Shown here in pieces: positions 13,860 to 37,448 of a DNA stretch of 44,778 nucleotides. Origin of the DNA: Bacteroidota bacterium. GTDB lineage: Bacteria; Bacteroidota; Bacteroidia; UKL13-3. The stretch is taken from assembly GCA_030680835.1 (NCBI GenBank), contig JAUXUD010000065.1:1-44778 (forward strand), written 5' to 3'. A model generated the notes under the pieces. It was not told the origin of the DNA. It made no database searches and worked only from the letters and a program-made list of their open reading frames with translations. A program made the translations under genes and the position numbers. How positions within the stretch are numbered: the stretch's first letter is position 1; each line of letters opens with the position of its first letter.

Positions 13860-13866
13860 CTTTATA

Positions 13867-17542: not shown

Positions 17543-20443
17543 CTAAACAAAATACATATCAATCATGCCTTTGTTTTTGGCATCAATTTTACCTCGGTAC
17601 TGGCAGGTAAATTTGTGTTTTACCAGTTCATGTGTTGTGCCGGTTATGTTAATTTTATTGGCTTCGCTGGTGCTTTCCATACGGCTGGCTACATTTACGG
17701 TGTCGCCCCAGATATCGTAGGCGAATTTTTTTGAACCTACAATGCCTGCTACAACCGGACCGCTGTTTAATCCCACCCGGATATCGAACAGTCCGCCCAG
17801 TTGTTTTCTGTTTTTCATAAACTCAATAATATCACGGGCAGCAAGTATGCATTGAATGGCATGTTCCGGATTTTCATGGGGCAAGCCGCAAACTGCAAGA
17901 TACGCATCACCGATGGTTTTTATTTTTTCCAAACCATGTACATCCATTATTGCATCAAAACCTTTAAAGCATAAATCTATTTCTGCTACCAGTTCGGTTG
18001 GTTTTAACTTTTCACCGATACCGGTAAAATTTACAAAATCGGTAAACATTACAGTTACATGTTCATATTGCCTGGCTTCAGATTTTCCTTTTCGTTTTAA
18101 TTCTTCGGCTACTTCACCCGGTAAAATATTTAAGAGCAAATCATCCGACTTTTTCTTTTCTGTTTTTAATTCAATATTATTTTGTGCCAGTTCTTTTGTT
18201 CGTTCAGCCACCACTTTTTCGAGCTTTTGATTTTTGGTGATCAATACCCTTGAATTAATTTTAATGATGAGGTAAATAAAAAGCAGAGAACACACAATAT
18301 ACAAAAGATATGCATAAATACTCTGGTACCAGGGAGAGAGGATGATGAGCTTGAGTTCAGCTTTTACAGCAGGGATACCTGTTGCATTTTTTGATTCAAC
18401 TTCAAGCAAATAAGACCCTGCTGCAAGTCCGGTTAAATTTAATTTCGATTCGTTTTTCCACGTACTCCAGTTTTCTCCCAATTCTTTAATTTTATATCGG
18501 TACAGGTTTTTATCCGGGTTGATGAAAGAATTAATTCCAAAAGCTACCTGAAGATTATTTTCTGCATGCGGGATTTTCGGGCAATAGTTTTGATCTTTAT
18601 TTTTTGCATCAAAAATAAGTTCTCCATTGCTATTGACTACCCGGTTAATGAATGTTTCGTATTTGGGCGTTTCGACTTCACTTCCATCGTATAAATAAAT
18701 TTTATCTTCAAAAGCAAACCATATTTTTTTGCCGTAGATGCATATGGCTGTGGGCCTTCCGTTAATTGCATAGGGAACAGACTGTTCTGCAATTTTACCG
18801 GCTTTTATTTGCCGGAGTACTTTACTGGTATAAATCCAAAAATCATTGTTAAAATCAAAGTCCATGTTTTTGGCATCCGAAAATATCCGACCTGCCGGTT
18901 CATTTATTTCAAACTGATCTCCCTTTAGTACGTAAACACCTTTTTCAGTTTGAAAAATAAATCCGCTATTATAATTCCGGATGATTACTTCTCCTTCAGA
19001 AAGTTCAGCCGGAGCCTTCTGTTTGGCATCCGTATTAATCAATCCGAAATGATAAGTCCCCAACCAGGGATTTGAACCCGCTTGTTCGGCAATGGAATTG
19101 GCCATTTCATAGTGCCCGCTTAATTTGCCCATTACATTTATAATTGCATCATTGCTTTGCGCATCTGTTCTCAATAGCTGGCAGAAAGTGGTACTGAATG
19201 CATAGATTAAATTTTTGTCGGTATTTGATTTTTGAATATGAACAAATGTTTCATTGGGAACCAAACATTTGGTACTTTGTGAACTCACCTCAAACAAGCC
19301 ATTGGTGGATGCTATCAGGAGTTTATTTTTTAATAATAATAAATCCCAGCATTCGCTGTTCATGCCACTTACAAGAATTGGGGTAGATGGATTTTCTGCA
19401 TCGGTTTTATACAAGCCATTGGTGCTGGCGATATACAAGTTGCCACCCAGAATCTGCATGTCGGTTACGTATCCACTTAAATTAAATTCGTTAAATTCAA
19501 GGATGGGAATATTAATATTTACATGTGTTAAACCTTTGCGATGGGCAACCCAAAGATTTTTTTCGTGATCCAGAAAAAGGCTGTAGATTTCATTAGACGG
19601 TAGTTTTATATTTTGTTCTCTTCCATTTAAACCTTCAAATACTTTTATGCCATCACTAAAGGTTCCCAATGCAATTTGCCGGCCATTTGGCGATGTTGCA
19701 ATGGATGCCAATCCCTTTAGGGCAAAATTATTCAGGGCTCCGTTTATTGCATTAATGCCTTCTTTTTTAAGTTGAAAAATTCCATGATAATTGCTGCCCA
19801 ATAAAAGTCCATCAGCGTATAGGGCTTCTCCTATTAGTGTTTTGCCCTTTAGTTTTTCACCGTCTTTTACGGGATTCAAACGAGACCCATTCCAAACACC
19901 CAAACCCTTATACAACTCGTTTATGTATAATTTTCTATTCCAGGCAAAGGCCCCGCTTATTTCATTTAATGTATTTATTTTTAACCCAAATTCTTTTGCA
20001 TTTATTGTAACGGTATATAAGTATTTGCCAGAAGTAAAAAAGATATCTCCGGCAACTTCAATTACTTTATTATCGCCCGAACCTGTTTGTTTTGCTTTGC
20101 TTAACTGCTCTTTAAAACTATGGTATTCAAACTTGCCACTTTCATCAAACAGAAGCACCCCCAAATCCCCTTCACATGCCAGAAACAGATTCCCGGTTTT
20201 ATCAAATGCCATACTTCTAACAGGTCTGGGAATAGGGTATAAACTCCAGTTATTTCCATCAAAACGTAGAACGCCTTCGTTATTGGCAAACCATATTCTT
20301 CCCTGCGCATCCTGTATAAAACTCCAGATTAAAGGATGGGCATTAAAATCTTTGCCTGAATAATTCTTTGAAGTATAATCCCATGCAAACACAGTTATTG
20401 TTTGAACCAACAGCAGCAGGGTAATAAGTAATACTTTTTTCAT
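17543..20443 (-). CDS. Propeller-sensor adenylyl cyclase (cassette 1)
   Basis: 966 residues. The signal peptide (1-20) is followed by a periplasmic beta-propeller (about 25-600) with the two-component-propeller signature GRIWFANNEGVLRFDG, and a Y_Y_Y domain (about 630-705). A membrane helix lies at about 708-729, followed by a coiled linker with the cyclase-associated motif SDDLLLNILP and a class III nucleotidyl cyclase domain (795-966). Metal ligands Asp802 and Asp846, the adenine-specifying pair Lys842 and Asp910, and transition-state residues Asn917 and Arg921 are all present. It should therefore make cAMP in the cytoplasm in response to a periplasmic signal. It lies 13 bp downstream of the TonB receptor gene and is surely co-transcribed. 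The layout is that of Bacteroides hybrid two-component sensors with the kinase replaced by a cyclase. Confidence 0.93.
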   Translation of the reverse strand: MKKVLLITLLLLVQTITVFAWDYTSKNYSGKDFNAHPLIWSFIQDAQGRIWFANNEGVLRFDGNNWSLYPIPRPVRSMAFDKTGNLFLACEGDLGVLLFDESGKFEYHSFKEQLSKAKQTGSGDNKVIEVAGDIFFTSGKYLYTVTINAKEFGLKINTLNEISGAFAWNRKLYINELYKGLGVWNGSRLNPVKDGEKLKGKTLIGEALYADGLLLGSNYHGIFQLKKEGINAINGALNNFALKGLASIATSPNGRQIALGTFSDGIKVFEGLNGREQNIKLPSNEIYSLFLDHEKNLWVAHRKGLTHVNINIPILEFNEFNLSGYVTDMQILGGNLYIASTNGLYKTDAENPSTPILVSGMNSECWDLLLLKNKLLIASTNGLFEVSSQSTKCLVPNETFVHIQKSNTDKNLIYAFSTTFCQLLRTDAQSNDAIINVMGKLSGHYEMANSIAEQAGSNPWLGTYHFGLINTDAKQKAPAELSEGEVIIRNYNSGFIFQTEKGVYVLKGDQFEINEPAGRIFSDAKNMDFDFNNDFWIYTSKVLRQIKAGKIAEQSVPYAINGRPTAICIYGKKIWFAFEDKIYLYDGSEVETPKYETFINRVVNSNGELIFDAKNKDQNYCPKIPHAENNLQVAFGINSFINPDKNLYRYKIKELGENWSTWKNESKLNLTGLAAGSYLLEVESKNATGIPAVKAELKLIILSPWYQSIYAYLLYIVCSLLFIYLIIKINSRVLITKNQKLEKVVAERTKELAQNNIELKTEKKKSDDLLLNILPGEVAEELKRKGKSEARQYEHVTVMFTDFVNFTGIGEKLKPTELVAEIDLCFKGFDAIMDVHGLEKIKTIGDAYLAVCGLPHENPEHAIQCILAARDIIEFMKNRKQLGGLFDIRVGLNSGPVVAGIVGSKKFAYDIWGDTVNVASRMESTSEANKINITGTTHELVKHKFTCQYRGKIDAKNKGMIDMYFV

Positions 20444-20456
20444 GGGATGCCCATTG

Positions 20457-23450
20457 TTAATTTAAGAGTTCATCAAACAATATCGAAAAATAAAATATCG
20501 CACCTACTGTTGGTGACCCCAATGCCTGGGTATATCTAACATTGGTTATATTGGTTCCTCCTGCTTTAAGCATGGTTTTATATTTGGGTAAATGCATGCT
20601 GATCATCAGGTCTAAATTATAGTATGCATTTAATACTCCCTGTTTGTTATATTCTTTAAAATGTACAATGTCAACCCAACGGTAGTTTGCAGTAAAACCA
20701 AAAATTTTATTGATTTTAATTCCGCTGATTCCGAAGTTCACTTTATTTTTTGGGGTATTAAAATTACCGATAAAATCCTGATCCAGGAATTCAATGGATT
20801 CATACATCTGGTTGAAGTTATAATTTCCGAACAGGGAATAATTTTTGTTCAGGATATAATTAAATGCAAGGGTATACCCGTATGCAGTTACAGGAATTGT
20901 TGAATTTACTCCCATTCTGTAAACCTGGGTATTTTGAACATTTTTAACATACGAAGGGGTAATGGTATCTGAACGGTTCACCGGGCCAATAAATTGCTGT
21001 GTGCTTATTAAATTGCTGAAATGACTGACATATACATTTATATCTGTTTCAAGTTTATCAAACAAAAAACTTCTCCAGCCCAGCTCAATTGCTTTTAACT
21101 GTTCAGGTACGATATCTTTAATTATTGATTTTTTCAATAAGGTTGAATCACCTGTTTTAAGAAAAGCGCTTACAGAACTTTGAATATACATATTTACAAA
21201 ATCGGTACCATCTGATTGCTTTCTTACCAGGTTTAATTTGGCGGCATCGCTGTAAAATCCGCCAAAAGTAATAGCCCTGGGCATAACTATAAAATTAAAC
21301 TGATCAATCAATGCAGGCATTCTGTAACCAACTTGTCCTGATGCACGGATGCTGTGTTGTTTGTGTTTACCCAATAACAAAACAACAGAAGCTCTGGGAC
21401 TTAATTTAGGTTCAAATCGTTGTGTTTTATCCAGTCTTAAAGAAGCCTGTAATTTTAAACGCTCTTCATAAAGATTTTTGGAAGCCTGCACAAACCCTCC
21501 GATTTCATTGGAATAAATCGCTTCTGTTTTATCCGGAAAAACAGTTCCGTGAGTCGCCGGGGCGTTAAAACGATAGTTTGCACCCATTAAAAATGAAACG
21601 GGTAACCTCAGATCTTTCAGGTCGTAGATATATTCTGTGTACCACGATTTTGAAGTGCTGATTAAACGGCTTCCATTTTCTGTGAAGCTATGGTTGGTAA
21701 CATAGTTAAAAGCAGAGTCAAATTCTTTGGTACCGGGCTGAAATTGCGCCCTGCCCAATAGTACATTGGTTATAGCGGTATCATTCAAAAAATTTTGTGC
21801 CCTTCTGGCAAATTCAGAATTGTCTCCATCAGCAAATTTTCTTGCAGCGGCATCATTGCCTCTTTGTATGGTATCCATTTGATCGGCTGCAGGAAGTTGC
21901 GCGTTCAGTGCATTGTAAAAGCCCGAAAAAGCCAGTAAATACTGAGCCATCCAGTTTTCATCAGATTTGGCCCCCCGGTTAATATTTATACCGGTAAGTG
22001 TGGCATCCGACGAATGACCTGTATTTTCAAAATATACATGGGTTCTGAATGTATAGTTTTTCCCTCTGATTTCGAATTTATGCTGATTCAAAAAGAAGTC
22101 TTTAATCTGTGCCCTGTTGTCAACCTGAAAACTGCTGCTGCCTGCACTGAACCGGGAGGTCCATGAAATTTCCATGTGTTTGTTGGGCCGGTAGTAAAAT
22201 GCAAGATCCGTTTTGGCATTATACGGTTTGTATTCAAAGAGCTGCGTTTCTTTATAACCGGTTCTTGAAACTTTTAAAGGTTCATATACCAAAGGAATCG
22301 GGCCAAATGGAGTAGGAACTTTAAAAGTGTTTGAATCAAAAACACTGGTAACCTCATCTCCGCTCAGGTTTGCACCTTCATAACCCGGATTGCCGGGGCC
22401 GGGTTTAAATCCGTAACTTGTTAAATTATTGCTGTATTGATAATTTGCAATATCTGCATAATCTGTTGCCTTCCAGTCGGTGGCACGTAAATAGCCCATC
22501 GTAAATTTATAAGCCCATTTTTGATTTTTAAAGGTATTGGCGTAGCGAAGGCTGAAATCATAAATGGGGGCGGGCTTATTGTCAATACCATCCACATGGT
22601 TAATACCCGACTTATAATTCACACTTAAACCTTTGTAATCGTACGGATTTTTAGACGTTGTATTTAACAAGCCGGTAATCGCATTGGGTCCATATAAAGC
22701 AGATGATGAACCCGGTATTAATTCAACCCTTTCAATATCAAGATCGATGGGGCCGTTTAGCTGATTCAGCGATAAGTTAAAGCCCTGCATGGATAAATCC
22801 ATATTGTCGAATCGTTGAATAAAACGGTGATTATAACTTGCATTAAAGCCACGTGTATTAATGGTTTTATAAGTTACGCTGGTCGTAATTACATCTATTC
22901 CCGACAGGTTCACCAGGCGGTCGTACATAGTCATGGAAGGATTATTCCTGATCTCAATGGCATTTAACAATTCAATGGTAACCGGGCTTTCAAATTTCCG
23001 TTCAGGTTTTCGTGATGCTGAAATAACTACAGCTTTGGCAACCGTAAAATTTTCTTTTAATCTGAAATGTATATAGGCACTGTTTTCATTGGGTTCAAAA
23101 GTTTCGGTAAAAAAACCCAGGTATGAACAAATCAGTTTGCATGGCCGGGTTAAGTTTACTTTAATGGCAAACGAACCATCCATTGACGACAAAACCCCAT
23201 TGCTGGTTCCGTATTCAATAATTGTAGCCAGTGGCAAATGCTCTCCGTTGGCTACCATACTCACTTTTCCGCGAATAATCCGGGCTGTAATGGGGCCTTC
23301 CGGGGCTAACAGCGAATCCGCAATCTGAACCGTTTTTTTAGATTTGGATCTGAAATCCTGGCTTAACAAATCACCCGGTAAAAAAATAAAAATCAGAAAA
23401 AAAAACAGAATGGGTACAGACAATAAAGTATTGTCAAATTTTTCATTCAT
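20457..23450 (-). CDS. TonB-dependent outer-membrane receptor (cassette 1)
   Basis: 997 residues. The signal peptide (about 1-31, ending LLSQ) is followed by a carboxypeptidase-regulatory-like domain (about 56-128, with ATIIEYGTSNGVLSSMDGSF). A possible TonB-box region VVISAS lies at 141-146 and the plug at about 150-260 (INTRGF, RVELIPGSSSALYGPNAITG). A long beta-barrel ends in an aromatic-rich strand (FYFSILFDELLN). It imports or senses an unknown ligand using TonB energy. The frame is open to 23522, but that would overlap the preceding T9SS gene and displace the signal peptide, so the ATG at 23450 is preferred. It is paralogous to the receptor at 30991-34023, with long shared stretches in the plug (FIQRFDNMDLSM). 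Confidence 0.92.
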   Translation of the reverse strand: MNEKFDNTLLSVPILFFFLIFIFLPGDLLSQDFRSKSKKTVQIADSLLAPEGPITARIIRGKVSMVANGEHLPLATIIEYGTSNGVLSSMDGSFAIKVNLTRPCKLICSYLGFFTETFEPNENSAYIHFRLKENFTVAKAVVISASRKPERKFESPVTIELLNAIEIRNNPSMTMYDRLVNLSGIDVITTSVTYKTINTRGFNASYNHRFIQRFDNMDLSMQGFNLSLNQLNGPIDLDIERVELIPGSSSALYGPNAITGLLNTTSKNPYDYKGLSVNYKSGINHVDGIDNKPAPIYDFSLRYANTFKNQKWAYKFTMGYLRATDWKATDYADIANYQYSNNLTSYGFKPGPGNPGYEGANLSGDEVTSVFDSNTFKVPTPFGPIPLVYEPLKVSRTGYKETQLFEYKPYNAKTDLAFYYRPNKHMEISWTSRFSAGSSSFQVDNRAQIKDFFLNQHKFEIRGKNYTFRTHVYFENTGHSSDATLTGININRGAKSDENWMAQYLLAFSGFYNALNAQLPAADQMDTIQRGNDAAARKFADGDNSEFARRAQNFLNDTAITNVLLGRAQFQPGTKEFDSAFNYVTNHSFTENGSRLISTSKSWYTEYIYDLKDLRLPVSFLMGANYRFNAPATHGTVFPDKTEAIYSNEIGGFVQASKNLYEERLKLQASLRLDKTQRFEPKLSPRASVVLLLGKHKQHSIRASGQVGYRMPALIDQFNFIVMPRAITFGGFYSDAAKLNLVRKQSDGTDFVNMYIQSSVSAFLKTGDSTLLKKSIIKDIVPEQLKAIELGWRSFLFDKLETDINVYVSHFSNLISTQQFIGPVNRSDTITPSYVKNVQNTQVYRMGVNSTIPVTAYGYTLAFNYILNKNYSLFGNYNFNQMYESIEFLDQDFIGNFNTPKNKVNFGISGIKINKIFGFTANYRWVDIVHFKEYNKQGVLNAYYNLDLMISMHLPKYKTMLKAGGTNITNVRYTQALGSPTVGAIFYFSILFDELLN

Positions 23451-23487
23451 GGAATTATTAAAAGTTCTCAATTCAATTTTTAATAAT

Positions 23488-24369
23488 TTATTGCACCCAA
23501 AATTTTCTGGTAAATTCACCATCTTCGTTACTTACCTTTAATAGGTATAATCCTGCTTCCAGTTGAGATGTTTGAATATTTGTTTCCTGTATATTTTTAT
23601 ATACGTCTAATACAACTTCTTTTCCCAAAAGGTTGTATAAACTTAGCGACACCTTTGAATAATTTTTATTGAATTTTATATTTAATATCTCATGAGATGG
23701 GTTCGGATATATATCAAAATATGCCGAGGCTTCAATTACTGAAACACCAACATTTCCACCTGTAAAATTAAGATCATCCAATAAAAATTTTGAGCCCGCA
23801 TGGTCGCAGGATAGTGCTACCGAAGCCACGCCAATAATTGCGGTATCGGGTGTGGCTGAGCTATAATATGTAAATGCAACACTTGCCTTTGTATAGATTG
23901 TATCCGTATTATGATGAAATGTAAATGCGGTAGCAATGGTGTCTCTTTTTGCCTGTACGCTATCCCAGCGTGTTAAAATAAAAAGGCCGTTTGCAGTGTC
24001 TGTACCAACGGGTTTATATTTGAACCAATATTCAACATGTGTGGGTCTATAGGTATATTTCATTCCCCATTGTGAACTTGTAAATGTTTGTTTTCCTAAA
24101 AATATCGAACCCCCATAATCGGGCACAAAAATACCTGACGGTTTTGTTGTAATTTTGGCTGCAACCATTTCACATGCGAAACTACCTGAATGTGCATCAT
24201 TGGATTTAAAGATGGTTTGGGGATTCCCAAAAAACATCAATCCATTGGTGCTTACCCAGCTTGTAGGGTCGTTACTGCTCCAACTTTCAAATCCACCATT
24301 TGTTATCTGGGCTGAAGGATTAAAATAGAAGAGGGCAAAGACAACAGTAATCGTAAATTTTGATTTCAT
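23488..24369 (-). CDS. Secreted protein with T9SS type A domain (cassette 1)
   Basis: 293 residues. A signal peptide (1-20) is followed by a beta-rich domain (about 21-205) that begins ITNGGFESW and ends with a conserved VALSCDHAGSKFLLDDL strand, resembling carbohydrate-binding/PCMD-type jelly rolls. A T9SS type A sorting domain (about 215-293) has YFDIYPNPSHE and GLYLLKVSNEDGEFTRKFWVQ at the end. It should be exported to the cell surface. It is the first gene of cassette 1, 37 bp upstream of the receptor gene, so a surface ligand-binding or processing partner of that receptor is plausible. A shortened copy sits at 27309-27728. Cassette 3 lacks it. Confidence 0.85.
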   Translation of the reverse strand: MKSKFTITVVFALFYFNPSAQITNGGFESWSSNDPTSWVSTNGLMFFGNPQTIFKSNDAHSGSFACEMVAAKITTKPSGIFVPDYGGSIFLGKQTFTSSQWGMKYTYRPTHVEYWFKYKPVGTDTANGLFILTRWDSVQAKRDTIATAFTFHHNTDTIYTKASVAFTYYSSATPDTAIIGVASVALSCDHAGSKFLLDDLNFTGGNVGVSVIEASAYFDIYPNPSHEILNIKFNKNYSKVSLSLYNLLGKEVVLDVYKNIQETNIQTSQLEAGLYLLKVSNEDGEFTRKFWVQ

Positions 24370-24547
24370 ATTATTTTGGAATAAAGTATATTAATACCTT
24401 AATATATTTTAATATCAAATAACGGAATAATTTTGATAAATAGGAAGTGAATTAAATATTTTTTGTGCATTAAATATAAATATTCAATATTTTACTGTGA
24501 GCAATTAAAAGGGTATTAAAATGCGTTTTTAAAAATTACAAAGCTAT

Positions 24548-24591
24548 CCTTCGCCATCACCTTCGCAAGGCTACGGTGATTAAGAAAAGCT
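24548..24591. repeat. 44-bp repeat, copy 1 (cyclase 2 stop)
   Basis: This 44-bp segment matches 27951-27994 at 42 of 44 positions. It contains the dyad ATCACC (24556-24561) / GGTGAT (24575-24580), and the tighter alternative CCTT-CGC-AAGG (24560-24570). The repeat covers the last codons and the stop (24580-24582) of the cyclase 2 gene, so part of the repeat is coding. No T-run follows on the minus strand. Confidence 0.85.
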
Positions 24592-26940
24592 ACGGTTAAC
24601 AAAGTACATATCAAGTTCCCCTTTGTTTTTTGCATCTAACTTCCCCCGATAGGTACACACAAATTCATCTTTAACCAGTTCATAAGTTGCGCCACTTATA
24701 TTAATCTCCCCTGCATCGCTGTTGCTTTCCATTCGGCTGGCGGTATTCACGGTATCGCCCCAAATGTCGTATGCGAATTTTTTTACACCTACAATACCTG
24801 CCACTACGGGGCCGGAGTGAATGCCTATTCTGATTTGAAACTTACCTGCATTTTGATTCATATATGCCTGAATCGCAATAGCTGCTTTAACTACCCTTTG
24901 GGCATGATCTTCCATTGGATTCGGTAAACCGCATACAGCCAGATAAGCATCGCCAATGGTTTTTATTTTTTCTATGCCATACTGTTCCATAATGGCATCA
25001 AAAGCGGTAAAATTTTTATGTATTTCGGCAACCAGTTCAACGGGTGTGAGTTGCTCGCTGATGCCGGTGAAGTTTACAAAATCAGTGAAAAGTACCGTAA
25101 CATGGTCATATTGCTTCGCATCACTGCTGCCTTTTTCTTTTAATTCTTCTGCAACTTCTTCAGGTAAGATATTGAGTAACAAATCATCCGATTTTTTCTT
25201 TTCAGCCTGTAATTGCAGGGTACGTTCTTCAACTTTTAACTCAAGTGTTTTGTTATACGCTTCCTGTCTTTGCTGATCCAGTTTCCGGTCGGTAATATCA
25301 TTCATCATCACAATGGCACCTGTAATTCTCCTGTTGCTTTCAAATAGCGGATTGGCTCTTATATCTACATATATATAATCACCGTCTTTTTTTCGAAGCC
25401 TGCCTTCAATATTTAATAATTTCCGGGGATTGTGAAATGCTTTTTCAAATGAGTCATGAACAGATTGCCTGTCGTCGGGATGCATGAAATCATAGGCAGA
25501 AATTCCAATCATTTCCTCCGGTTTAAATCCGATGGTTTTTTTAAAACTCGGACTGGCGAATGTTAAGGTGGCGTTCAAATCAAGGATACTGATTAAATTA
25601 GAGCTCGTATTAATGATATTCCTGAATTTCTTTTCGCTCATTTCTATCTGATCGTATTTTTGACCGAGTTCGGCATTCACAGCATTTAATTGCAGGGTTG
25701 ATTTTTCAACCGTTTCAAATGCATACGAAATACGTGAGGCCAGAATATAAGCCTGTAAAAGGATGTTCATGAAAAACCCCAAAGGGGTAAGGTACCGGCT
25801 ATTAATGATAAGCAAGCTCAGCAACATGTCATTGATGACACAGGCAACCAGCGTGAGCGTAATAATCAGAAAGATTACTGAACCGCTTCGTTTATTTTTA
25901 ATGGCTTTTGGAGAAACAATCAGGATAATATAGAATGCCTTAAAAACAACTAAAATCTGGAATCCAGAGAGCATGGAAGTGTAAAAAGAAGTGCTGGTTA
26001 AACAAATCACCAGCGTTTCAATCAGGGTAATTCCAACTACAATTTTCAGCACCGTTTTCGAAAAATCGAGTGTAAACAGATAATAAACAAAAATGATGAA
26101 TAATGATGAACCATAGCTTAAAGTGAGATATTCCAAACGTAACCCTAAATTCAGATTGAATGAAGGAAAAAAGACGTATAAAAAACGGTCATCTGTTAAC
26201 ATTGACCGAAAGAGTAATGACAAACATAACAAGCCAAACCACAAGGCAATTTTTTCGCTTTTCCTTAAAAAAAATATCCAGATATGATAAATGAATAAGA
26301 TAAACATGATGCCAAACAGAATGGTTTCAAACGCAGCTTCCCGTTCATGCTTATTGATGAGTTGATCCATGGTTCCCAATTGATAACTGGACCATATGCC
26401 TCCTTTGCTGTGGAAATTATTTGATACCTGTACTATAATATCCAGTTCGGAAGTATCAGCAGTGAAACTTCTCAGCATAGGCAGAAACTGGGGTTTCATT
26501 TTATCCGGAATGTCAGATACTACCCCATTGGATGCAACGGATTGTCCGTTAATCCACAATTTAAAAGAAGAAGCCGCATCAAAACATTTTATACCCAATA
26601 TTGGATAGGGATGTTTCAATTTAATTTTTAAATGGTAGGTAGCAAATCCTTTTCCCGGTAATTTATGCGTGTGTTTGGTTTGTTCATTCCAGGTTCCGGG
26701 TATCGAAAGACTCAGAGCAGGCGTATCCACCTGTAAGCGCCTGAAATCATCCGGTGTATACAGTTTATTCCAGTAAAAGTCCCATTTCCCGTCTAATTTC
26801 AGGATTCCGTCTTTTTCAAAATCCCAGTCCGATAAATCAAGAATCCCCTGCACAGCAAGAGGTGGATTCCTTTTGGGATCGTTGCAGGCAAAAATAGAAA
26901 TGATACTGCCAAGAAATACAATTAATTTTATCAGTCTCAT
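24580..26940 (-). CDS. 7TMR-DISM/PAS adenylyl cyclase (cassette 2)
   Basis: 786 residues. The leader ends SIFAC and may be a lipoprotein signal. Then come an extracellular jelly-roll 7TMR-DISMED2-like domain (about 30-190), seven membrane helices (about 205-405), a PAS/PAC domain (about 435-555, with FRNIINTSSNLISILD and ITGAIVMMNDITDRK), a coiled linker with SDDLLLNILP, and a class III cyclase domain (613-786). Asp620 and Asp664 (metals), Lys660 and Asp725 (adenine), and Asn732 and Arg736 are intact. The catalytic domain is closer by eye to cyclase 3 than to cyclase 1 (shared DHAQRV, YMNQN, IRIGIHSGPV, VNTASRMESNS). It overlaps the receptor remnant by 4 bp (ATGA), so it is translationally coupled to it. 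Its sensor is unrelated to the other two cyclases. Confidence 0.93.
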   Translation of the reverse strand: MRLIKLIVFLGSIISIFACNDPKRNPPLAVQGILDLSDWDFEKDGILKLDGKWDFYWNKLYTPDDFRRLQVDTPALSLSIPGTWNEQTKHTHKLPGKGFATYHLKIKLKHPYPILGIKCFDAASSFKLWINGQSVASNGVVSDIPDKMKPQFLPMLRSFTADTSELDIIVQVSNNFHSKGGIWSSYQLGTMDQLINKHEREAAFETILFGIMFILFIYHIWIFFLRKSEKIALWFGLLCLSLLFRSMLTDDRFLYVFFPSFNLNLGLRLEYLTLSYGSSLFIIFVYYLFTLDFSKTVLKIVVGITLIETLVICLTSTSFYTSMLSGFQILVVFKAFYIILIVSPKAIKNKRSGSVIFLIITLTLVACVINDMLLSLLIINSRYLTPLGFFMNILLQAYILASRISYAFETVEKSTLQLNAVNAELGQKYDQIEMSEKKFRNIINTSSNLISILDLNATLTFASPSFKKTIGFKPEEMIGISAYDFMHPDDRQSVHDSFEKAFHNPRKLLNIEGRLRKKDGDYIYVDIRANPLFESNRRITGAIVMMNDITDRKLDQQRQEAYNKTLELKVEERTLQLQAEKKKSDDLLLNILPEEVAEELKEKGSSDAKQYDHVTVLFTDFVNFTGISEQLTPVELVAEIHKNFTAFDAIMEQYGIEKIKTIGDAYLAVCGLPNPMEDHAQRVVKAAIAIQAYMNQNAGKFQIRIGIHSGPVVAGIVGVKKFAYDIWGDTVNTASRMESNSDAGEINISGATYELVKDEFVCTYRGKLDAKNKGELDMYFVNRSFS

Positions 26941-27296
26941 GTATGAACAATAATAATCAGTTTACAGGGTCTGGTTACATTTACTTTAATGTCCAACGAA
27001 CCATCCATTGATGACATTACACCATTGTTGATTCCGGATTCGATAATTGTAGCCAGGGGCAAATGCTCTCCGTTGGCTACCATACTCATTTTCCCGCGAA
27101 TTATTCGTGCATTCATGTGTCCTTCCGGAGGCAGGAGCGAATCAGTTATGTGAACCATTTTTTTAGATTTGGATCTGAATTCCTGGTTCAATAAATTTTC
27201 CGAAAAAAATGTAAAAATCAGAAAGAAAAACAGTGCAGGTCCGGACAAAAAAGTATTGTCAAATTTTTCATTTGTGTATTCAATAAAAGTTCTCAA
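26937..27296 (-). pseudogene. Truncated TonB receptor remnant (cassette 2)
   Basis: An open frame of 119 codons that aligns without gaps to residues 2-107 of the cassette 1 receptor (signal peptide, SKSKK, then RGK, SMVANGEHLPLATIIE, SSMDGS, TRPCKLI). At the ancestral start the ATG reads ACA (27273-27275), leaving only a TTG at 27296 or internal ATGs. After KLI, about 5 extra bases break the frame; a few more bases still match the receptor gene, and then the frame stops at the TGA overlapping the cyclase 2 ATG. Plug and barrel are gone. Several stretches of over 20 bases are identical to the intact gene, so the duplication looks recent. It might still be translated as a short exported leader peptide; I call it a remnant. 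Confidence 0.85.
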
Positions 27297-27308
27297 GTCA
27301 AAACCAAT

Positions 27309-27728
27309 TTATTGCACCCATATTTTTCTGGTAAACTCACCATCTTCATTACTTAGCTTTAAGAGGTATAATCCTGCTTCCATTTGAGATGTTTGAATAT
27401 TTGTATTCTGTATATTTCTTAATTCCTTGTATGCAATCTCTTTTCCCAGAAAATTATATAAACCTAAAGTCATCCCTGAATAATTTTTATCAAACCGTAC
27501 ATTAAAACTCTCATGAGAAGGGTTGGGGTATATATCAAAAATTGCAGATTTTTCAATTGAATTAAGACCAACATTTCCTCCGGTAAAAGCCAGTTCATCC
27601 AATAAAAATTTTGAACCCGCATGGTCGCATAAAAGGGCTACTGAAGCTACACCAATGTTAGTTATCCGGGCATTTATAATTCCGCTTAGGCAGGATAGTA
27701 AAATTGACATGGTATATTTTGTTTTCAT
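27309..27728 (-). pseudogene. Internally deleted T9SS protein (cassette 2)
   Basis: 139 codons: the signal peptide and first residues (ending ITN) are joined directly to IGVASVAL and the T9SS type A sorting domain (IFDIYPNPSHE, GLYLLKLSNEDGEFTRK). Compared with the 293-residue cassette 1 protein, residues 25-178 are missing; 293 minus 154 equals 139 exactly, so a single in-frame deletion of 462 bp explains it. The product could still be exported as little more than a sorting domain. The ATG at 27728 is preferred over a TTG one codon upstream. It lies 12 bp upstream of the receptor remnant. Loss of the entire ligand-binding domain argues for decay, but the intact frame is notable. Confidence 0.85.
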
Positions 27729-27896
27729 CAACTTCCTTATTTTTAATTATTTTAAATAAAAACAATCATAAGTCAAATAAAGGAAAAATTTAGATAAATA
27801 TGAAGCCTTTTTTGAATGCTATTAAAAAGAAATTAAAGTATTTGAATTTTGCACATAACTGATCATGTTGAAGAATTTATAAAATTTTTCAGGGTT

Positions 27897-27911
27897 GTTG
27901 GTGTGACCAAC
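27897..27911. repeat. Small hairpin
   Basis: GTTGGT-GTG-ACCAAC has a perfect 6-bp stem and 3-nt loop. It lies 129 nt beyond the end of the cyclase 3 gene in its direction of transcription; no T-run follows on that strand, so termination is uncertain. Confidence 0.45.
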
Positions 27912-27950
27912 GTAATTATTCTTCGCTAAAAGTATTGAAAACGAAGTTAA

Positions 27951-27994
27951 CCTTCGCTATCACCTTTGCAAGGCTACGGTGATTAAGAAAAGCT
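27951..27994. repeat. 44-bp repeat, copy 2 (downstream of cyclase 3)
   Basis: This is the partner of 24548-24591 with two transitions. Relative to copy 1 there are about 60 extra bases between the repeat and the end of the cyclase coding sequence, including CCTACGCTAAAGCTTCGAAGG-like dyad sequence that I recall as frequent in Bacteroidota intergenic DNA. Confidence 0.8.
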
Positions 27995-28025
27995 AGCTCC
28001 TACGCTAAAGCTTCGAAGGCACGCG

Positions 28026-28070
28026 TATGGTTAACAAAGCTAACCTTCGCCAAAGCTATGGTTAACAAAG
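28026..28070. repeat. Direct repeat at the cyclase 3 stop codon
   Basis: TATGGTTAACAAAG occurs at 28026-28039 and again at 28057-28070, 31 bp apart. The second copy is coding (the Phe-Val-Asn-His part of the cyclase C-terminus); the first lies just outside the stop codon (28040-28042). It looks like a small tandem duplication of the gene end. Confidence 0.75.
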
Positions 28071-30961
28071 TACATATCAAGCATTCCTTTATTTTTTGCA
28101 TCCAATTTTCCCCGGTAAGTACATTCAAACTCATTTTTAACCAATTCATAAGTAGCACCGCTAATATTAATTTGGCCGGCCTCACTGTTACTTTCCATCC
28201 GGCTTGCGGTATTTACGGTATCTCCCCAAATATCGTAAGCGAATTTTTTTGAGCCAACAATGCCTGCCACCACCGGGCCAGAGTGAATTCCAATTCTGAT
28301 TTGAAATCTGCCTGTATTTTGATTCATATAGGTTTGAATATCAATCGCGGCTTTAATAACTCTTTGTGCGTGATCAGCGGTTACCTGCGGCAATCCACAA
28401 ACAGCAAGGTAAGCATCCCCGATTGTTTTTATTTTCTCCAATCCATGTTTTTCAATAATGGAATCAAATGCAGTAAAGTTTTTATGGATATCTCTAACCA
28501 GTTCGGTAGGACTTAATTGTTCGCTAATTCCGGTAAAGTTTACAAAATCGGTAAAGATTACGGTTACATTATTGTAAAGACGGGCTTCAGCAGTTCCTTT
28601 TTCCCTGAGTTCATTTGCCACATCAACAGGTAATATATTATGCAAGAGGTCTTCTGATTTTTGTTTCTCTGTTTTTAATTCTTTTGTGCGTTCATTTACA
28701 ATTTTTTCAAGCTGAATATTTTTTGCAATTAAGCGTTTGTTATTTAAAATAATAGTTGAATAAACCAACAGGATTAACAGACTAACGTAAACCATATAGG
28801 CAACACCGCTCAGGTAAAAAGGTGGAATAATTTTAAAATTAAAAACACCTTCTTCCGACAATTGACCTGTTGCATTCCGGGCTTTTACATGAATGCTGTA
28901 TTTACCGCCGTTTAACCCTTTTAAATGAACAAATGATTCGCTTTGCCAATCAGACCAATCTTTGTTAAGTCCGTCAATTTTATAACTATATAGATTCTTA
29001 AGCGGATTGATAAAAGAGTTTATACCAAATTCAATCCGAAGTGAATTTTCCCCATAATTTATTTCCGGTACCACTTCTTCTGATTCTGAAAGTTCTCCGT
29101 TTTTGTCAATATAAAATCCGCTATAAGCTATTTTTGAATGACCGTATGAAAATTTATTAATCATGGCTTTTATTTTTGTTGGTGGAATGTCTGAAGATTC
29201 TATTAAATAAAGTTTATCTTCAAATGCAAGCCAGAGTTTATTTTTAACTTCAAACAATGCGGTAGGTTTTCCACTTATACAATAAGCTGTTGATTGTTCT
29301 GAAAGTTCATTGTTAATGATTTGTTTCAGCCTATCCTCTGTAAATAGCCAAAAGTTTTTACCAAATTCAAAATCATTATTTTTTGAACCCTGAAATATTT
29401 TTGTTAATCCGTTATTTTCAACAAATGATTTTCCATTAAAAGTATAAACCGAATCTCTTGTTTGAAAAACAGGTTCACTATCTTTTAAACGGATACGAAT
29501 TTCACCATTTAGAAGTCCGCCCGGAAGGGCACTCTTTAATGGTCCTGACATGAGTAGTCCGTTGTGGTATGTTCCAGCCCAAAAGTTTTGATTGGTCTGT
29601 TCCAAAATTGAATTTGCATTTTCAGATAAGCCTGTTAACTTTTCTGAAGTATAAAATACTGAAGGGCTATTTGAATGATGAAGTTTCCAGCAAGCGTTTA
29701 TTCCAAGAGCATATATATCCCCACTCAAATTGCCTTTTTGTAAATGAAGAATTATTTCAGACGGAATCACTGATTTTGAGTTGTTGCCATTTACCTGAAA
29801 TAATCCGTTGGTAGCAGCAACCAACAAATTACTCTTATCAGAAATCAAATCCCAGCATTCTCCAAGCCCAATTACAGGAACTAATGTAACAGGATTGCCG
29901 GTATCCAATTTATACAACCCACTGGTTGTTGCGATATATAAATCGGTTCCTGACAACTGCATATCTGTTGCATATCCCGAAAAAATTAAATCAGGAAACT
30001 GTTTAACAGGCAGACTCATTAATACATGTGACAAACCTTTGGCATGACCAACCCATAAATTATTTTCCCTGTCAACATGTAAACTGTATGTTTCGGGTGA
30101 AGGAAGATCTAAATAATATTTCTCTACTGTGTTAAATTCATTTAAATTATTAAGTGAATAAATTTTTACTCCATCATGAAGGCTACCAATTATTATTTCC
30201 CCATTCCTCATGTTTGTAATAGCAGCTATACCTTTTTGTGTAAACAAGTTAATTGCTCCATTTATTTTCGAGAGTCTTTTGTTCTTCAAAATATATACTC
30301 CGTCGAAAGTGCTTGCGATAATAATCTTGTCTTTTTCAATGCAAACACCGGCAATCTGTTTTCCTGCCAGCTGCTCTCCTCCCTGCACAATATTCAGTTT
30401 TCCATCATTAAATTCAGCCAAACCAAATTTAGCTGAATTTACAAAAAGTTGTTTCCCGTCTGTAAATGAACCTAAAATGTTTTTTATTTTATACAATTCA
30501 GCCTGAAATGATTTTTCAGCTTTTGTGACTTTCACAATCCCGTCCTGTATTGAAAAATAAATTTCGTCTCCAATAGTCTGAACACGGATTATTCCGCTCA
30601 AATTCCTGATAGTTGAACCAAACCGGGCTTTAAAACTTTCATATCTATAAGCACCCTGAGTATTAAATTTTATCATTCCAAAATCTCCCATGCAGGCAAC
30701 AAACAATTCGCCTTTATCATTAAAAGAAATTTGCCTGACAGGATTCGGTGTGTTAAATAATGTCCAGTTATTGCCATCAAACCGAAGCACTCCTTCGTTG
30801 TTTGCAAACCATATTCTTCCATATGCATCTTCTGAAGCATTCCACATTAACTGGTGTGCAGGGTATGATTTATTGTTATATTGATTGATTAAAAAATCCT
30901 GAGGAAATACGGATTTAATCAGGCAGTGAATTAAAGAGAGTATCAAAAATTTTATTTTCAT
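28040..30961 (-). CDS. Propeller-sensor adenylyl cyclase (cassette 3)
   Basis: 973 residues, a full-length paralogue of cyclase 1. A signal peptide (about 1-20) is followed by a beta-propeller (about 25-600) with the same GRIWFANNEGVLRFDGNNW core, a Y_Y_Y domain (about 635-710), a membrane helix (about 718-740), a coiled linker (LLHNILP) and a cyclase domain (798-973). Asp805 and Asp849 (metals), Lys845 and Asp910 (adenine), and Asn917 and Arg921 are present. It should produce cAMP. It follows its receptor gene by 29 bp. Its C-terminus continues past the Phe-Val end of cyclase 1 with NHSFGEG, residues encoded by sequence related to the downstream repeat; cyclase 2 has a comparable NRSFS tail. 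Confidence 0.93.
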   Translation of the reverse strand: MKIKFLILSLIHCLIKSVFPQDFLINQYNNKSYPAHQLMWNASEDAYGRIWFANNEGVLRFDGNNWTLFNTPNPVRQISFNDKGELFVACMGDFGMIKFNTQGAYRYESFKARFGSTIRNLSGIIRVQTIGDEIYFSIQDGIVKVTKAEKSFQAELYKIKNILGSFTDGKQLFVNSAKFGLAEFNDGKLNIVQGGEQLAGKQIAGVCIEKDKIIIASTFDGVYILKNKRLSKINGAINLFTQKGIAAITNMRNGEIIIGSLHDGVKIYSLNNLNEFNTVEKYYLDLPSPETYSLHVDRENNLWVGHAKGLSHVLMSLPVKQFPDLIFSGYATDMQLSGTDLYIATTSGLYKLDTGNPVTLVPVIGLGECWDLISDKSNLLVAATNGLFQVNGNNSKSVIPSEIILHLQKGNLSGDIYALGINACWKLHHSNSPSVFYTSEKLTGLSENANSILEQTNQNFWAGTYHNGLLMSGPLKSALPGGLLNGEIRIRLKDSEPVFQTRDSVYTFNGKSFVENNGLTKIFQGSKNNDFEFGKNFWLFTEDRLKQIINNELSEQSTAYCISGKPTALFEVKNKLWLAFEDKLYLIESSDIPPTKIKAMINKFSYGHSKIAYSGFYIDKNGELSESEEVVPEINYGENSLRIEFGINSFINPLKNLYSYKIDGLNKDWSDWQSESFVHLKGLNGGKYSIHVKARNATGQLSEEGVFNFKIIPPFYLSGVAYMVYVSLLILLVYSTIILNNKRLIAKNIQLEKIVNERTKELKTEKQKSEDLLHNILPVDVANELREKGTAEARLYNNVTVIFTDFVNFTGISEQLSPTELVRDIHKNFTAFDSIIEKHGLEKIKTIGDAYLAVCGLPQVTADHAQRVIKAAIDIQTYMNQNTGRFQIRIGIHSGPVVAGIVGSKKFAYDIWGDTVNTASRMESNSEAGQINISGATYELVKNEFECTYRGKLDAKNKGMLDMYFVNHSFGEG

Positions 30962-30990
30962 GGATCAGGTAAATTAAAAATGAACCCAAA

Positions 30991-33900
30991 TTATCTCAGC
31001 AAATCGTCATATAAAACCGAAAAATAAAAAACCGCTCCCACCATCGGTGCTCCGATTGCCTGTGAATAGCGGTTATTGCTTATGTTTGATCCCGCCAATT
31101 TAAACATGGTATTGTGTTTTGGTACATGATAACTGATCATCATATCTATCAGGTAATACCCTTCAACATGTCCGCTCTGGTGGTACTCATGGTAATTATA
31201 TCCGTCAACCCAGCGAAAATTACAGGTAAAACCAAAGTTTTTTAAAATTTTAACTGATGAAATACCGAGATTTATTTTATGAGCTGGCGTATTAAATCCT
31301 GAAACAAAATCCTGCAGCAAATATGCATTCGTTTCTTTAACAGCATTGTAATTATAATTTGCATGCAGATTTGTTTTCTGTGATAAAAAATAAATGAATG
31401 CAAATGAAAGTCCATAAGAGAGAACAGGTTCTTTTGAATTTACCGATTTACGATAAATTATCGTTCTTTGCGGGTCTGAGATATAAACTGCATTGATGGT
31501 ATCTGTGCGCGTTATAGGGCCTATATACTGTTCAGAGCCTATTAAATTCTGATAGTAATTCAGGTAAAAGCTAAAATCTGTTTCTAATTTACCATACCAA
31601 AAATTCCTCATTCCAATTTCCAGCGTTCTTACTTCTTCGGGCTTTATATTCTTAATAAAAGGTTTAATGAGTTTGCTTGAATCATGGGTATAAAAATATT
31701 CTTTCACCGAGCTTTGGGTATATAAATTTATATAGTCAGTTCCATCGTTAAAAGTTCCGGCCAGATTTAATTTTGCCGCATCATTATAAAACCCACCAAA
31801 ATTATAATAACCCGGAAGCAGAATATTTGTAAACTGATCGGTTAAGGAGGGAGTCCTGAAACCAATTTGTGCAGATGCGCGCAAACTATTCTGCCTTTTT
31901 TGTCCCAGCAATAAAACCGTTGAAACCCTCGGACTAAAACGGGGTTCAAATCTTTGCATATAATCAACCCGGCCTGAAGCCTGCAGCATGAGCCTTTTGT
32001 CCATTAAATCTTTTTTAGCCTGAATGAATATTCCGGTTTCATTAGAATAAATCGGCGTAATGGCATCAGAAAATAAAGTCCCTCCCGATGCCGGAGTATA
32101 AAGCCGGTAGTTGCCTCCCGCCAAAACAGAAACGCTTTTGATTAGGTTTTTAAAATCGAAAATATACTCGGTATACCACATTTTGGAGGTACTGTATAAG
32201 CTTGCCCCTCCATCATTGGGCCCTCTCGAAATGGCATCATTATATGCCAGCTCAAACTCTTTGCTACCCGGCTGCAAACGTGCCCTTCCGAGCATGTATT
32301 TTGCGAGTGTACTGTCGAGAGGCAGCATTGATGCATACATTTGGCTGTTGTCGGTATCCGCAAATTTTCGCGCTGCTGCATCATTAGCTCTGGGTATTGA
32401 ATCATACCCAAGATTTAAAGCCTTATTGATGTCATTAAACCTTCCCGAATAAGCCATCAGGTATTGGGCAAACCAATTTGCATCCGCTTTTGCTGCCCGG
32501 TTAATTAGCATAGAAGCCAGACCAAATGCATATGCACTTCTTAAATGCTCCATACTAACATAAGTTCTGAGTGTATGATTTTGATATTTTACTTCTAACT
32601 TGTGTTGTTGTAATAACAGGCTTTCCAGATGAATACGTGCATCCAGTAAATAGTTTGCATTACCCATGCATACCCGATAATTATAAGATATTTCCGTTTG
32701 TTTGTCAGGATGATAATACAGACCTAAATCTGTTTTAAAATTATAGGTTTTGTAATTGAAAACCTGGTCTTCGGCATATCCGGTTCGTGCAATTTTTAAA
32801 GGATCTTTTAATAATGAAAAACTCCCGAACTGGGTTTTAAATTTATAACTCGAATCAAAAACCAGGGCTACTTCATCCCCTCCGATATTGGTGCCATCAT
32901 ATCCCGGATTTCCATACCCGGGTTTATAGCCATAGGTGCTTAGATTGTTACTGTAGGCATAATCCGATACATCTCTGTAATCGGTGGCATGCCAGTCGTT
33001 GGCGTTCATATAACCCAGAGTTACTTTGTATGCCAGATATTTGTTTAAAACATTCGCATACCTGAAACTTAAATCGAATACGGGTCCTGGTTTTGCATCC
33101 ATCCCGTCAATGTGGTTCACCCCTGTTTTTAAACATGCACTTAAGCCCCGGTACTGAAAAGGATTTTTTGAATAGGTATTCATCAAACCATTCAAAATAT
33201 TCGGGCCATAAAGCGCAGATGCGGTTCCGGGTATGATTTCTACCCGTTCCACATCTAAATCAACAGGTCCATTTAGCATGCCCGCCGAAATATTTAATGC
33301 AGGCATTGACAAATCCATATTATCGAAACGTTGTATGAAACGCCGGTTATATGTTGTGTTGAACCCACGTGTATTGATAACCTTAAATACGATACTGGTT
33401 GTGATAGCATCCACGCCAGCCAGATTTACCACCCGGTCATAAAGATTGATAGTGGGGTTATATTGAAGTTCCCGCATATTGATGGTTTCAATGCTCACCG
33501 GGCTTTCAAATTTTCTTTCGCTTTTGCGGGATGCGGAAACAACAACTTCCCTGCTGCTGACAAATTTTTCCCTGAGACGGAAATTGATAAAAGATGTTTT
33601 TTCATTAACAATGACTGTATCGTTTTCAAAACCCAGATAAAAGCAAATAAGTTTTTGGGGTTTGCTTACGTCCAGGTTAATAAAAAAAGTTCCCCGCTCA
33701 CTGCTAAATACACCTTGCCGGGTACCTAAAACGGATATGGTAGCTATGGCCAGAAATTCACTTTTATGCATGGAGCGTACGGTACCGTATATAGTTCTCG
33801 AAACGGTTTCACCTTCAGCTTCACCTGTGGTATCAGGTTGTTCAGAGTACTTCTTTGCCTGAAAACGGAAATTCTGTGATAATGCTGAAAAGGAGAAGCT

Positions 33901-34023
33901 AATAAACAACAGGTTAATCAAAAACAATTGTCTGATTTTTTTACTGTTATTGTCAGATATATAAAAGGAAACAAAAGCAGTAATTATTGAAATGAATGAA
34001 AGAAAATGAATTTTCTTTTTCAC
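30991..34023 (-). CDS. TonB-dependent outer-membrane receptor (cassette 3)
   Basis: 1010 residues, paralogous to the cassette 1 receptor. A carboxypeptidase-regulatory-like domain (with IYGTVRSMHK and GVFSSERGTFFINLD) is followed by the motif VVVSASRKSERKFESPVSIE, a plug (INTRGF, FIQRFDNMDLSM, RVEIIPGTASALYGPN) and a large barrel ending FYFSVLYDDLLR. The start codon appears to be GTG at 34023. The N-terminus has two hydrophobic stretches, the second ending FSALSQ like a normal signal peptide; no ATG lies between them, so the exact start is uncertain. A good promoter (TTG-N21-TATATTTG, 34041-34072) stands upstream. It heads the cassette 3 operon with the cyclase; no T9SS gene precedes it. Confidence 0.91.
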   Translation of the reverse strand: MKKKIHFLSFISIITAFVSFYISDNNSKKIRQLFLINLLFISFSFSALSQNFRFQAKKYSEQPDTTGEAEGETVSRTIYGTVRSMHKSEFLAIATISVLGTRQGVFSSERGTFFINLDVSKPQKLICFYLGFENDTVIVNEKTSFINFRLREKFVSSREVVVSASRKSERKFESPVSIETINMRELQYNPTINLYDRVVNLAGVDAITTSIVFKVINTRGFNTTYNRRFIQRFDNMDLSMPALNISAGMLNGPVDLDVERVEIIPGTASALYGPNILNGLMNTYSKNPFQYRGLSACLKTGVNHIDGMDAKPGPVFDLSFRYANVLNKYLAYKVTLGYMNANDWHATDYRDVSDYAYSNNLSTYGYKPGYGNPGYDGTNIGGDEVALVFDSSYKFKTQFGSFSLLKDPLKIARTGYAEDQVFNYKTYNFKTDLGLYYHPDKQTEISYNYRVCMGNANYLLDARIHLESLLLQQHKLEVKYQNHTLRTYVSMEHLRSAYAFGLASMLINRAAKADANWFAQYLMAYSGRFNDINKALNLGYDSIPRANDAAARKFADTDNSQMYASMLPLDSTLAKYMLGRARLQPGSKEFELAYNDAISRGPNDGGASLYSTSKMWYTEYIFDFKNLIKSVSVLAGGNYRLYTPASGGTLFSDAITPIYSNETGIFIQAKKDLMDKRLMLQASGRVDYMQRFEPRFSPRVSTVLLLGQKRQNSLRASAQIGFRTPSLTDQFTNILLPGYYNFGGFYNDAAKLNLAGTFNDGTDYINLYTQSSVKEYFYTHDSSKLIKPFIKNIKPEEVRTLEIGMRNFWYGKLETDFSFYLNYYQNLIGSEQYIGPITRTDTINAVYISDPQRTIIYRKSVNSKEPVLSYGLSFAFIYFLSQKTNLHANYNYNAVKETNAYLLQDFVSGFNTPAHKINLGISSVKILKNFGFTCNFRWVDGYNYHEYHQSGHVEGYYLIDMMISYHVPKHNTMFKLAGSNISNNRYSQAIGAPMVGAVFYFSVLYDDLLR

Positions 34024-35936: not shown

Positions 35937-35947
35937 TTACGGGAAAA

Positions 35948-36538: not shown

Positions 36539-36685
36539 AAATTCTAAAAATACATTTACATCCCCAAAAAGGGGGATGAACTTTTTGCTGAACCAAATAT
36601 AAAGTCAATAATTTGTAAATTCTGCTCCTAAAATTGTGGATAAATAGGGACTTTGTATTTAATTTTTATATTAAATTCGAAAATA

Positions 36686-37414: not shown

Positions 37415-37436
37415 TTTTTAATTCAAACCGTCAGCT

Positions 37437-37444
37437 TATTTTTG
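37437..37444 (+). promoter_or_regulatory. Candidate -7 box (TATTTTTG) at response regulator start
   Basis: TATTTTTG ends 4 nt before the ATG at 37449, inside the short gap after the kinase gene. If active it would give a leaderless transcript for the regulator alone. No -33 motif at the standard distance, and the gene is already in an operon, so it may be chance. Confidence 0.3.
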
Positions 37445-37448
37445 TTAA

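Follow-up and report, generated by a model that had tools for sequence, protein, structure and literature searches.

A TonB-dependent receptor gene and a propeller-sensor cyclase gene form a conserved pairing in one lineage of Bacteroidota

The closest described systems combine elements of the locus studied here in other ways. The hybrid two-component systems (HTCS) of Bacteroides possess a large periplasmic sensor of Reg_prop and Y_Y_Y domains and a transmembrane segment, are encoded in or near loci with susC-like receptors, and binding studies with the sensor domains in purified form indicated oligosaccharides as the cues (PMC3243724). Reg_prop and Y_Y_Y sensory domains also occur on cyclic-nucleotide-output proteins, i.e., GdpX2 and GdpX3 of Xanthomonas (PMC6637768), and Campylobacterota contain clusters in which a CHASE2 adenylate cyclase is accompanied by a phosphodiesterase and an outer-membrane protein (PMC9239204). 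Here, we analysed a stretch of 44,778 nucleotides from a Bacteroidota bacterium (contig JAUXUD010000065.1, hereafter the window), in which a gene for a TonB-dependent receptor is twice followed by one for a propeller-sensor class III cyclase. In the literature searched, which did not cover subscription papers and preprints, neither this pairing nor the HD-domain protein treated below was described, and no worked-out cyclic AMP (cAMP) circuit for Bacteroidota turned up, though class III cyclases (PF00211) are present in 188 of the 395 genomes sampled from the phylum.

The two cassettes lie on the minus strand of the window at 34023-28040 (cassette 3) and 23522-17543 (cassette 1; Table 1). The stop of the receptor gene and the start of the cyclase gene are 13 bp apart in cassette 1 (20457 to 20443) and 29 bp in cassette 3 (30991 to 30961). 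Each sensor comprises ~970 residues. Pfam returned, for the sensors of cassettes 1 and 3 respectively, Reg_prop with E-values of 6.9e-11 and 6.4e-8, Y_Y_Y with 6.7e-8 and 6.6e-10, and Guanylate_cyc with 8.8e-52 and 1.6e-55. Between Y_Y_Y and the cyclase domain come a single hydrophobic helix and a linker that is probably a coiled coil; both, like the signal peptide, were assigned by inspection, without a prediction tool. Both receptors contain CarbopepD_reg_2 and Plug domains, as expected of the TonB-dependent receptor of a SusCD-type locus. The sensors of the two cassettes are 48% identical to each other and the receptors 51%. An earlier note on this DNA had given the coordinates, strands, gaps of 13-29 bp, sensor layout and paralogy of both partners, and all of these proved correct. 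It had also described the cassette as a pair of genes. The pairing of receptor and sensor stands, but the pair is not the complete unit, which has a third member, unlisted in the note: a secreted protein, here called POR, encoded ahead of the receptor in cassette 1. Its C-terminal type A sorting domain (Por_Secre_tail, 3.5e-16; TIGR04183) identifies it as cargo of type IX secretion, and its PCMD match (7.8e-7) was barely above the cut-off; Pfam and NCBIfam were used for these assignments. The cassette 1 receptor likely starts at a methionine at about 23450. We also tried to assign a ligand class to the receptors with the NCBIfam models of haem, siderophore and B12 receptors; all matches fell far under the cut-offs, and therefore no ligand is assigned.

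Table 1 Coordinates of the cassettes and associated genes in the window
Feature	Position	Strand	Basis
Cassette 1, gene 1: secreted protein POR, 293 aa, PCMD-like body, type IX secretion C-terminal tail	23488..24369	-	Pfam, NCBIfam
Cassette 1, gene 2: TonB-dependent receptor, CarbopepD_reg_2 + Plug, no STN	20457..23522	-	Pfam; clade of 11 in family
Cassette 1, gene 3: sensor, signal peptide + Reg_prop propeller + Y_Y_Y + one transmembrane helix + class III cyclase	17543..20443	-	Pfam, motifs; signal peptide and transmembrane helix by inspection
Cassette 3: TonB-dependent receptor, no POR gene upstream	30991..34023	-	Pfam
Cassette 3: sensor, propeller + Y_Y_Y + transmembrane helix + class III cyclase	28040..30961	-	Pfam, motifs
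Cassette 2: 7TMR-DISM + PAS + class III cyclase, behind decayed POR/receptor pair	24580..26940	-	Pfam
Receptor gene remnant, N-terminal part only	26937..27296	-	tblastn match 26955-27299, 74% to residues 17-131 of cassette 1 receptor
Secreted-protein gene remnant, C-terminal part + sorting tail	27309..27731	-	match 27312-27656, 75% to residues 179-293 of 23488-24369; Por_Secre_tail 2.7e-14
HD-domain protein, candidate cAMP phosphodiesterase (function inferred)	35948..36526	-	cyclase co-occurrence, fusions/neighbours, predicted fold
HD-domain protein, second copy, 56% identical	13867..14451	-	
Universal stress protein between HD-USP pair and cassette 3	34171..34965	-	Pfam Usp 1.4e-10
Universal stress protein (USP) paired with HD gene	35076..35936	-	Pfam Usp 1e-22
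Universal stress protein paired with second HD gene	13029..13859	-	Pfam Usp 9.7e-22

The unit of three genes recurs in related genomes. When 64 family genomes were searched with the cassette 3 sensor as query and up to 13 candidates were scored in each, seven genomes, the window genome included, proved to hold close relatives of the propeller. The cyclase-ended unit is present in four other genomes of the window genus: in three of these (G010, G005 and G001) the genes for POR (about 295 aa), receptor and sensor follow each other on one strand with gaps or overlaps of at most 15 bp, and in the fourth (G009) the order is the same, with the sensor gene spread over two contigs. Two genomes of another genus (G032 and G033) show the identical gene order with a sensor that ends in a histidine kinase. 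Pfam identified HisKA and HATPase domains and no receiver in the sensor of G033; the kinase output of the G032 sensor was assigned from its sequence and a kinase match to its record. G032 carries two receptors in tandem, and searches of both genomes gave no PF00211 and no HD protein match. Across these loci, the gene order is kept at 34-54% protein identity to the window copies. A separate receptor search yielded 11 close members at least 49% identical to the cassette 3 receptor; a POR gene lies upstream of 10 of them, two (at locus L075) sharing one POR.

On this conserved receptor-propeller unit, cyclase and histidine kinase outputs have been exchanged. In the protein alignment the output changes after the shared linker. 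The propellers form one clade with 100/100 support, and the kinase-ended ones fall inside it. The cyclase domains do not follow this grouping: those of the four other genomes cluster together (100/99), the cassette 1 domain groups with a DISM cyclase of genome G002 (98/93), and that of cassette 3 with the DISM cyclase encoded in the window itself (95/92). Five long-branch or outlying domains were left out of this final tree; a quick tree of 41 rows that includes them gives the same three-way split. An approximately unbiased (AU) test rejected the six cyclase domains as one clade (p-AU 1.5e-5); the tested group was defined by the propeller, and the quick tree had been inspected before the test. 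As the cyclase domains are polyphyletic and the propellers monophyletic, the outputs were exchanged or converted, and either repeated domain exchange or gene conversion would explain the conflict between the two trees.

The cyclase domains appear equipped for catalysis. The motifs FTDFV[NG]FT, EKIKTIGDAY, YDIWGDTVNxAxR and AKNKG are kept in all six cyclase-ended sensors, i.e., both of the window and their four relatives, and they contain both metal aspartates, the adenine-contacting lysine and aspartate, and the Asn/Arg pair. The cassette 3 domain also aligns with mammalian AC5. Judging from Pfam, motifs and this alignment, the domains belong to the class III adenylyl type. Since the catalytic residues are all kept, a symmetric adenylyl cyclase dimer would be expected.

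We then compared the pairing of receptor and sensor with chance and with other cyclases. Plug-domain matches numbered 677 in about 96.7 Mb of 25 genomes, about one per 143 kb, and at an assumed one gene per 1.1 kb a TonB receptor would thus be expected as neighbour of about 1.5% of genes. A receptor stands directly upstream of all six cyclase-ended sensors of the propeller subfamily, and of both kinase-ended ones. In contrast, as far as the sequence extends, no receptor lies two genes or fewer to either side of the 17 non-propeller cyclase genes of the window family (15 loci; for five of the genes a stretch or contig edge falls inside that range). A custom-built profile served to call the receptors of fetched loci; in seven control loci one large neighbour each was checked by Pfam and none was a receptor, that of L107 having no match at all. 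The difference between 6/6 and 0/17 is significant (Fisher p 1e-5, relatedness not corrected), but the six sensors are relatives and therefore not independent events, so that the p-values overstate the number of events. Within this one lineage, receptor and sensor form a genuine, conserved pair.

It is not a general property of propeller cyclases. We scored 18 loci of other Bacteroidota families (L076-L093) with a match covering Y_Y_Y and cyclase, drawn from a non-exhaustive search with two candidates scored per genome; Pfam confirmed four of the 18 as Reg_prop plus Y_Y_Y. A receptor on the same strand and no more than two genes away is absent from all 18. Six of the nine loci of family f25 do have a receptor directly adjacent, but a convergent and unrelated one, and one more locus has it one gene further off; a directly adjacent receptor is present in none of the nine loci outside f25. 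The rule that propeller cyclases adjoin TonB receptors is therefore rejected (0/18 same-strand; 6/18 convergent, all six in f25), and the f25 arrangement is a second, lineage-specific association. In its six loci (L081, L083, L084, L085, L088 and L089) the receptor, labelled STN-type by inspection, stands tail-to-tail with the propeller cyclase, and the gene ends overlap by 4-11 bp in five of the six. At L081, a FecR gene lies beside the convergent receptor and an extracytoplasmic-function (ECF) sigma factor gene about 2.4 kb upstream of the FecR gene. The earlier note had asked whether cyclases of this layout adjoin receptors more often than random genes do; within the window's subfamily they do, and as a rule for Bacteroidota the idea fails. 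Its proposal of a parallel signalling design with a different output predicted a receptor-propeller module of this kind, and the kinase in the other genus agrees with it. Taken as a whole, that design is partly supported, by the conserved gene order, the catalytic motifs and the kinase swap, but neither as a rule for all propeller cyclases nor as a unit of two genes.

Propellers with other outputs widen the picture. A scan of named genomes with the propeller alignment gave 36 loci, of which four were cassettes already described and 32 lay outside the family, the latter including the nearest outside propellers found. The output is of LuxR type in 31 of these 32, and in 30 a divergent TonB receptor is directly adjacent on the opposite strand. 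The two exceptions are a contig edge (L156) and a truncated sensor without adjoining receptor (L180). At L152, the sole outside locus checked by Pfam, a SusD_RagB gene follows the receptor. Judging from the 30 loci with a receptor, receptor-propeller pairing is thus a wider Bacteroidota theme with cAMP output as a variant, and the cyclase is one output among several on it; this agrees with what is described for the Bacteroides HTCS (PMC3243724). At L182 (9893-12794) a LuxR-type propeller sensor is broken into two open frames, and the receptor next to it is full-length. Two LuxR-ended sensors of the window's own family are located beside glycan-related genes and not a TonB receptor, i.e., at L142 (4608-7727, a Glyco_hydro_2_C match) and L144 (483-3755, CBM48 modules and a sorting tail).

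Close to the cassettes, the window encodes two copies of a small HD-domain protein, and several lines of genomic evidence tie it to the class III cyclases. Of the 64 family genomes, 19 have such a cyclase, and 18 of these also have the HD protein; it is absent from the other 45, which gave no PF00211 match (Fisher 5e-15, relatedness not corrected). The sole cyclase genome without an HD match, G054, is 65% complete. At L071, L072 and L073, the gene that immediately follows the sensor cyclase encodes the HD protein (194-196 aa); at L070, one gene, a relative of the universal stress protein at 34171..34965, separates the two. In the phylum sample, all 29 genomes with an HD match at or below 1.5e-30 are among the 188 with PF00211. 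At E<=1e-15, the matches extend to 122 genomes, 80 with and 42 without a cyclase, and homologues weaker than about 1e-30 often reside in open frames of ~400 aa and are also found in cyclase-free genomes; the link to cyclases holds for the close HD group only. Of 20 HD loci that we retrieved, chiefly those with the strongest matches, six (G213, G080, G181, G127, G363 and G001) were chosen after a cyclase had been seen on the same stretch. A cyclase is present within the fetched 9-15 kb in 14 of the 20 loci, and in eight of the 14 not so chosen; six loci have none. The HD gene of L206 was missing from the open reading frame calls and was placed by its search match. In two loci, a single polypeptide contains the cyclase and, after it, the HD domain (L194, 5663-11260; L199, 3689-5275).

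The predicted structure of the HD protein reached a predicted local distance difference test (pLDDT) score of 90. VIA-align gave a Z-score of 17.3 to PDE10A (187 of 192 residues, root mean square deviation 2.9), tied with the bacterial HD hydrolase 2pq7 (Z 16.6 over 158 residues); Foldseek ranked 2pq7 and YpgQ first, and a comparison with PDB sequences gave no match below E 0.6. The modelled fold is compatible with class I cyclic-nucleotide phosphodiesterases, which is not decisive alone. Its genomic link points to cAMP turnover, and the protein, as neighbour or fusion partner of class III cyclases, may degrade cAMP. Pairs of HD and universal stress protein genes flank the cassettes of the window at 13029-14451 and 35076-36526, which suggests an older segmental duplication, and such pairs also occur in L104 and L106. 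Eight of the 20 HD loci (L197, L200, L201, L203, L206, L208, L210 and L213) contain a short class III cyclase of 343-348 aa near the HD gene, often with a gene of 123-152 aa alongside. Further associations near class III cyclases include HD domains fused to or adjoining a YitT/DUF2179 membrane protein (L197, 4350-5810; L195, 5929-6810) and an HD-TPR fusion (L198, 2887-5466).

Between cassettes 1 and 3, remnants of a POR gene and of a receptor gene precede the cassette 2 cyclase, so that the region probably once held three cassettes, one of which is now decayed. The sensor position of this third cassette is occupied by a different cyclase, of 7TMR-DISM/PAS type, whose catalytic domain shares 82% identity with the cassette 3 one. 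Elsewhere in the window, an AbiEii-type nucleotidyltransferase gene is found at 6893-7519; the next gene (7542-8615) matches only DUF4190, and no AbiEi partner was recognised there. A HisKA_3 kinase and a LuxR response regulator are encoded at 36653-38087 near a cassette, and a similar pair (L130, 11472-12856) stands beside the sensor-less POR-receptor pair of G033.

We propose, with a probability of roughly 0.6, that the cassettes are TonB receptor operons with a dedicated inner-membrane sensor whose output is cAMP. The genes would be co-transcribed. The type IX-secreted protein and the receptor would capture and import a ligand, and the ligand or the loaded receptor would be sensed in the periplasm by the beta-propeller/Y_Y_Y domain; for ligand delivery and direct sensing by the propeller, this follows the precedent of the HTCS. 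The signal would pass through one helix and the coiled-coil linker to a class III cyclase dimer making cAMP, which the linked HD protein would probably hydrolyse and the universal stress proteins may bind. A cAMP-binding universal stress protein is known in mycobacteria (PMC11107214). Because the window has no SusD and no recognised glycan-active enzymes, a polysaccharide ligand should not be assumed.

Several observations weigh against this proposal. The window's own cassette 3 is the clade receptor that has no POR gene, and two of the 11 clade receptors (L129 and L130) are paired with a POR and have no sensor. The POR model, built from five sequences, has a mean pLDDT of 55, too poor for a fold search, so that no fold is claimed; matches of POR to PDB sequences were weak, six of eight covering the sorting tail. 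For five propeller sensors with LuxR output in the window's family, no receptor is seen two genes or fewer away, two of them reaching a stretch or contig edge, and the other-family Y_Y_Y cyclases have no same-strand receptor. Moreover, the receptors lack an STN signalling domain and there is thus no sequence support for direct contact between receptor and sensor. Part of this would suit an arrangement of transcriptional convenience, in which receptor and sensor are merely co-expressed for one nutrient or stress and the cyclase senses a cue not passing the receptor, for instance one from the envelope or a metabolite in the periplasm: such an arrangement accommodates the missing STN domain, the POR-receptor pairs without any sensor and the absence of a receptor partner from propeller cyclases of most other sampled families. 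Yet it leaves unaccounted for that the gene order persists at 34-54% identity, that the output is exchanged as receptor and propeller stay joined, and that propellers outside the family adjoin TonB receptors so regularly (30/32). We regard it as unlikely.

Cell-surface signalling akin to FecA-FecR, in which an N-terminal periplasmic domain of the receptor touches the sensor and import is unneeded, would fit the adjacent same-strand genes and the CarbopepD_reg_2 domain at the receptor N-terminus, expected to face the periplasm; the 25 window proteins, searched with Pfam, include no STN domain, FecR or ECF sigma factor, the parts that characterise FecA/FecR systems, and this route seems quite improbable to us. 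A local copy-number artefact, i.e., a sensor inserted by chance behind a receptor and duplicated in tandem with no functional meaning, appears highly improbable. The tandem paralogues, the decayed copy and the two HD-USP pairs show that the window has been subject to duplication, and the subfamily is confined to 7 of 64 family genomes, but the arrangement is kept by eight sensors, six with a cyclase and two with a kinase, from seven genomes and two genera, and the contrast with the other family cyclases given above (Fisher p 1e-5, relatedness not corrected) speaks against it as well. Given the loci in other genomes, chance duplication as the sole explanation was set aside.

If the operon proposal is true, a single compact locus brings together an input and an output that are both defined, the imported ligand and cAMP, along with a candidate off-switch. 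The kinase output in the other genus is a natural swap, by which the role of the sensor could be tested apart from its output, and a cell may report its imports through whichever signalling chemistry it uses. More broadly, and only tentatively, the cassettes might represent a receptor-linked sensory module of Bacteroidota, composed of a secreted or surface protein, a TonB receptor and a propeller/Y_Y_Y/helix sensor, whose output is exchangeable between DNA binding, kinase and adenylyl cyclase, and whose cAMP signal could be ended by an undescribed HD phosphodiesterase that, in many Bacteroidota, follows class III cyclases as a neighbour or as part of the same protein.

Compared with the known systems, the cassettes combine familiar parts differently. 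The Campylobacterota clusters employ a CHASE2 sensor, an outer-membrane protein with a FecR domain and a TPR protein, and no TonB receptor or propeller is named in them (PMC9239204). GdpX2 and GdpX3 differ by their GGDEF-type output and c-di-GMP as the nucleotide (PMC6637768). The window sensors share the periplasmic Reg_prop and Y_Y_Y domains with the HTCS (Pfam), but HTCS unite kinase, receiver and DNA-binding domains in one polypeptide, whereas the window sensors end in Guanylate_cyc and that of G033 in HisKA/HATPase with neither receiver nor AraC. The loci differ likewise: no SusD-family lipoprotein and no glycan-degrading enzymes were recognised by Pfam among the 25 window proteins, and the type IX-secreted protein stands in the place of SusD. 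The propeller/Y_Y_Y/LuxR regulators of Mucilaginibacter, Chitinophagaceae and others resemble the cassettes in their related propellers (22-25% identity for nearly all) and in the TonB receptor alongside; they differ in their DNA-binding output, in being divergent from the receptor and in the SusD present at the one locus checked.

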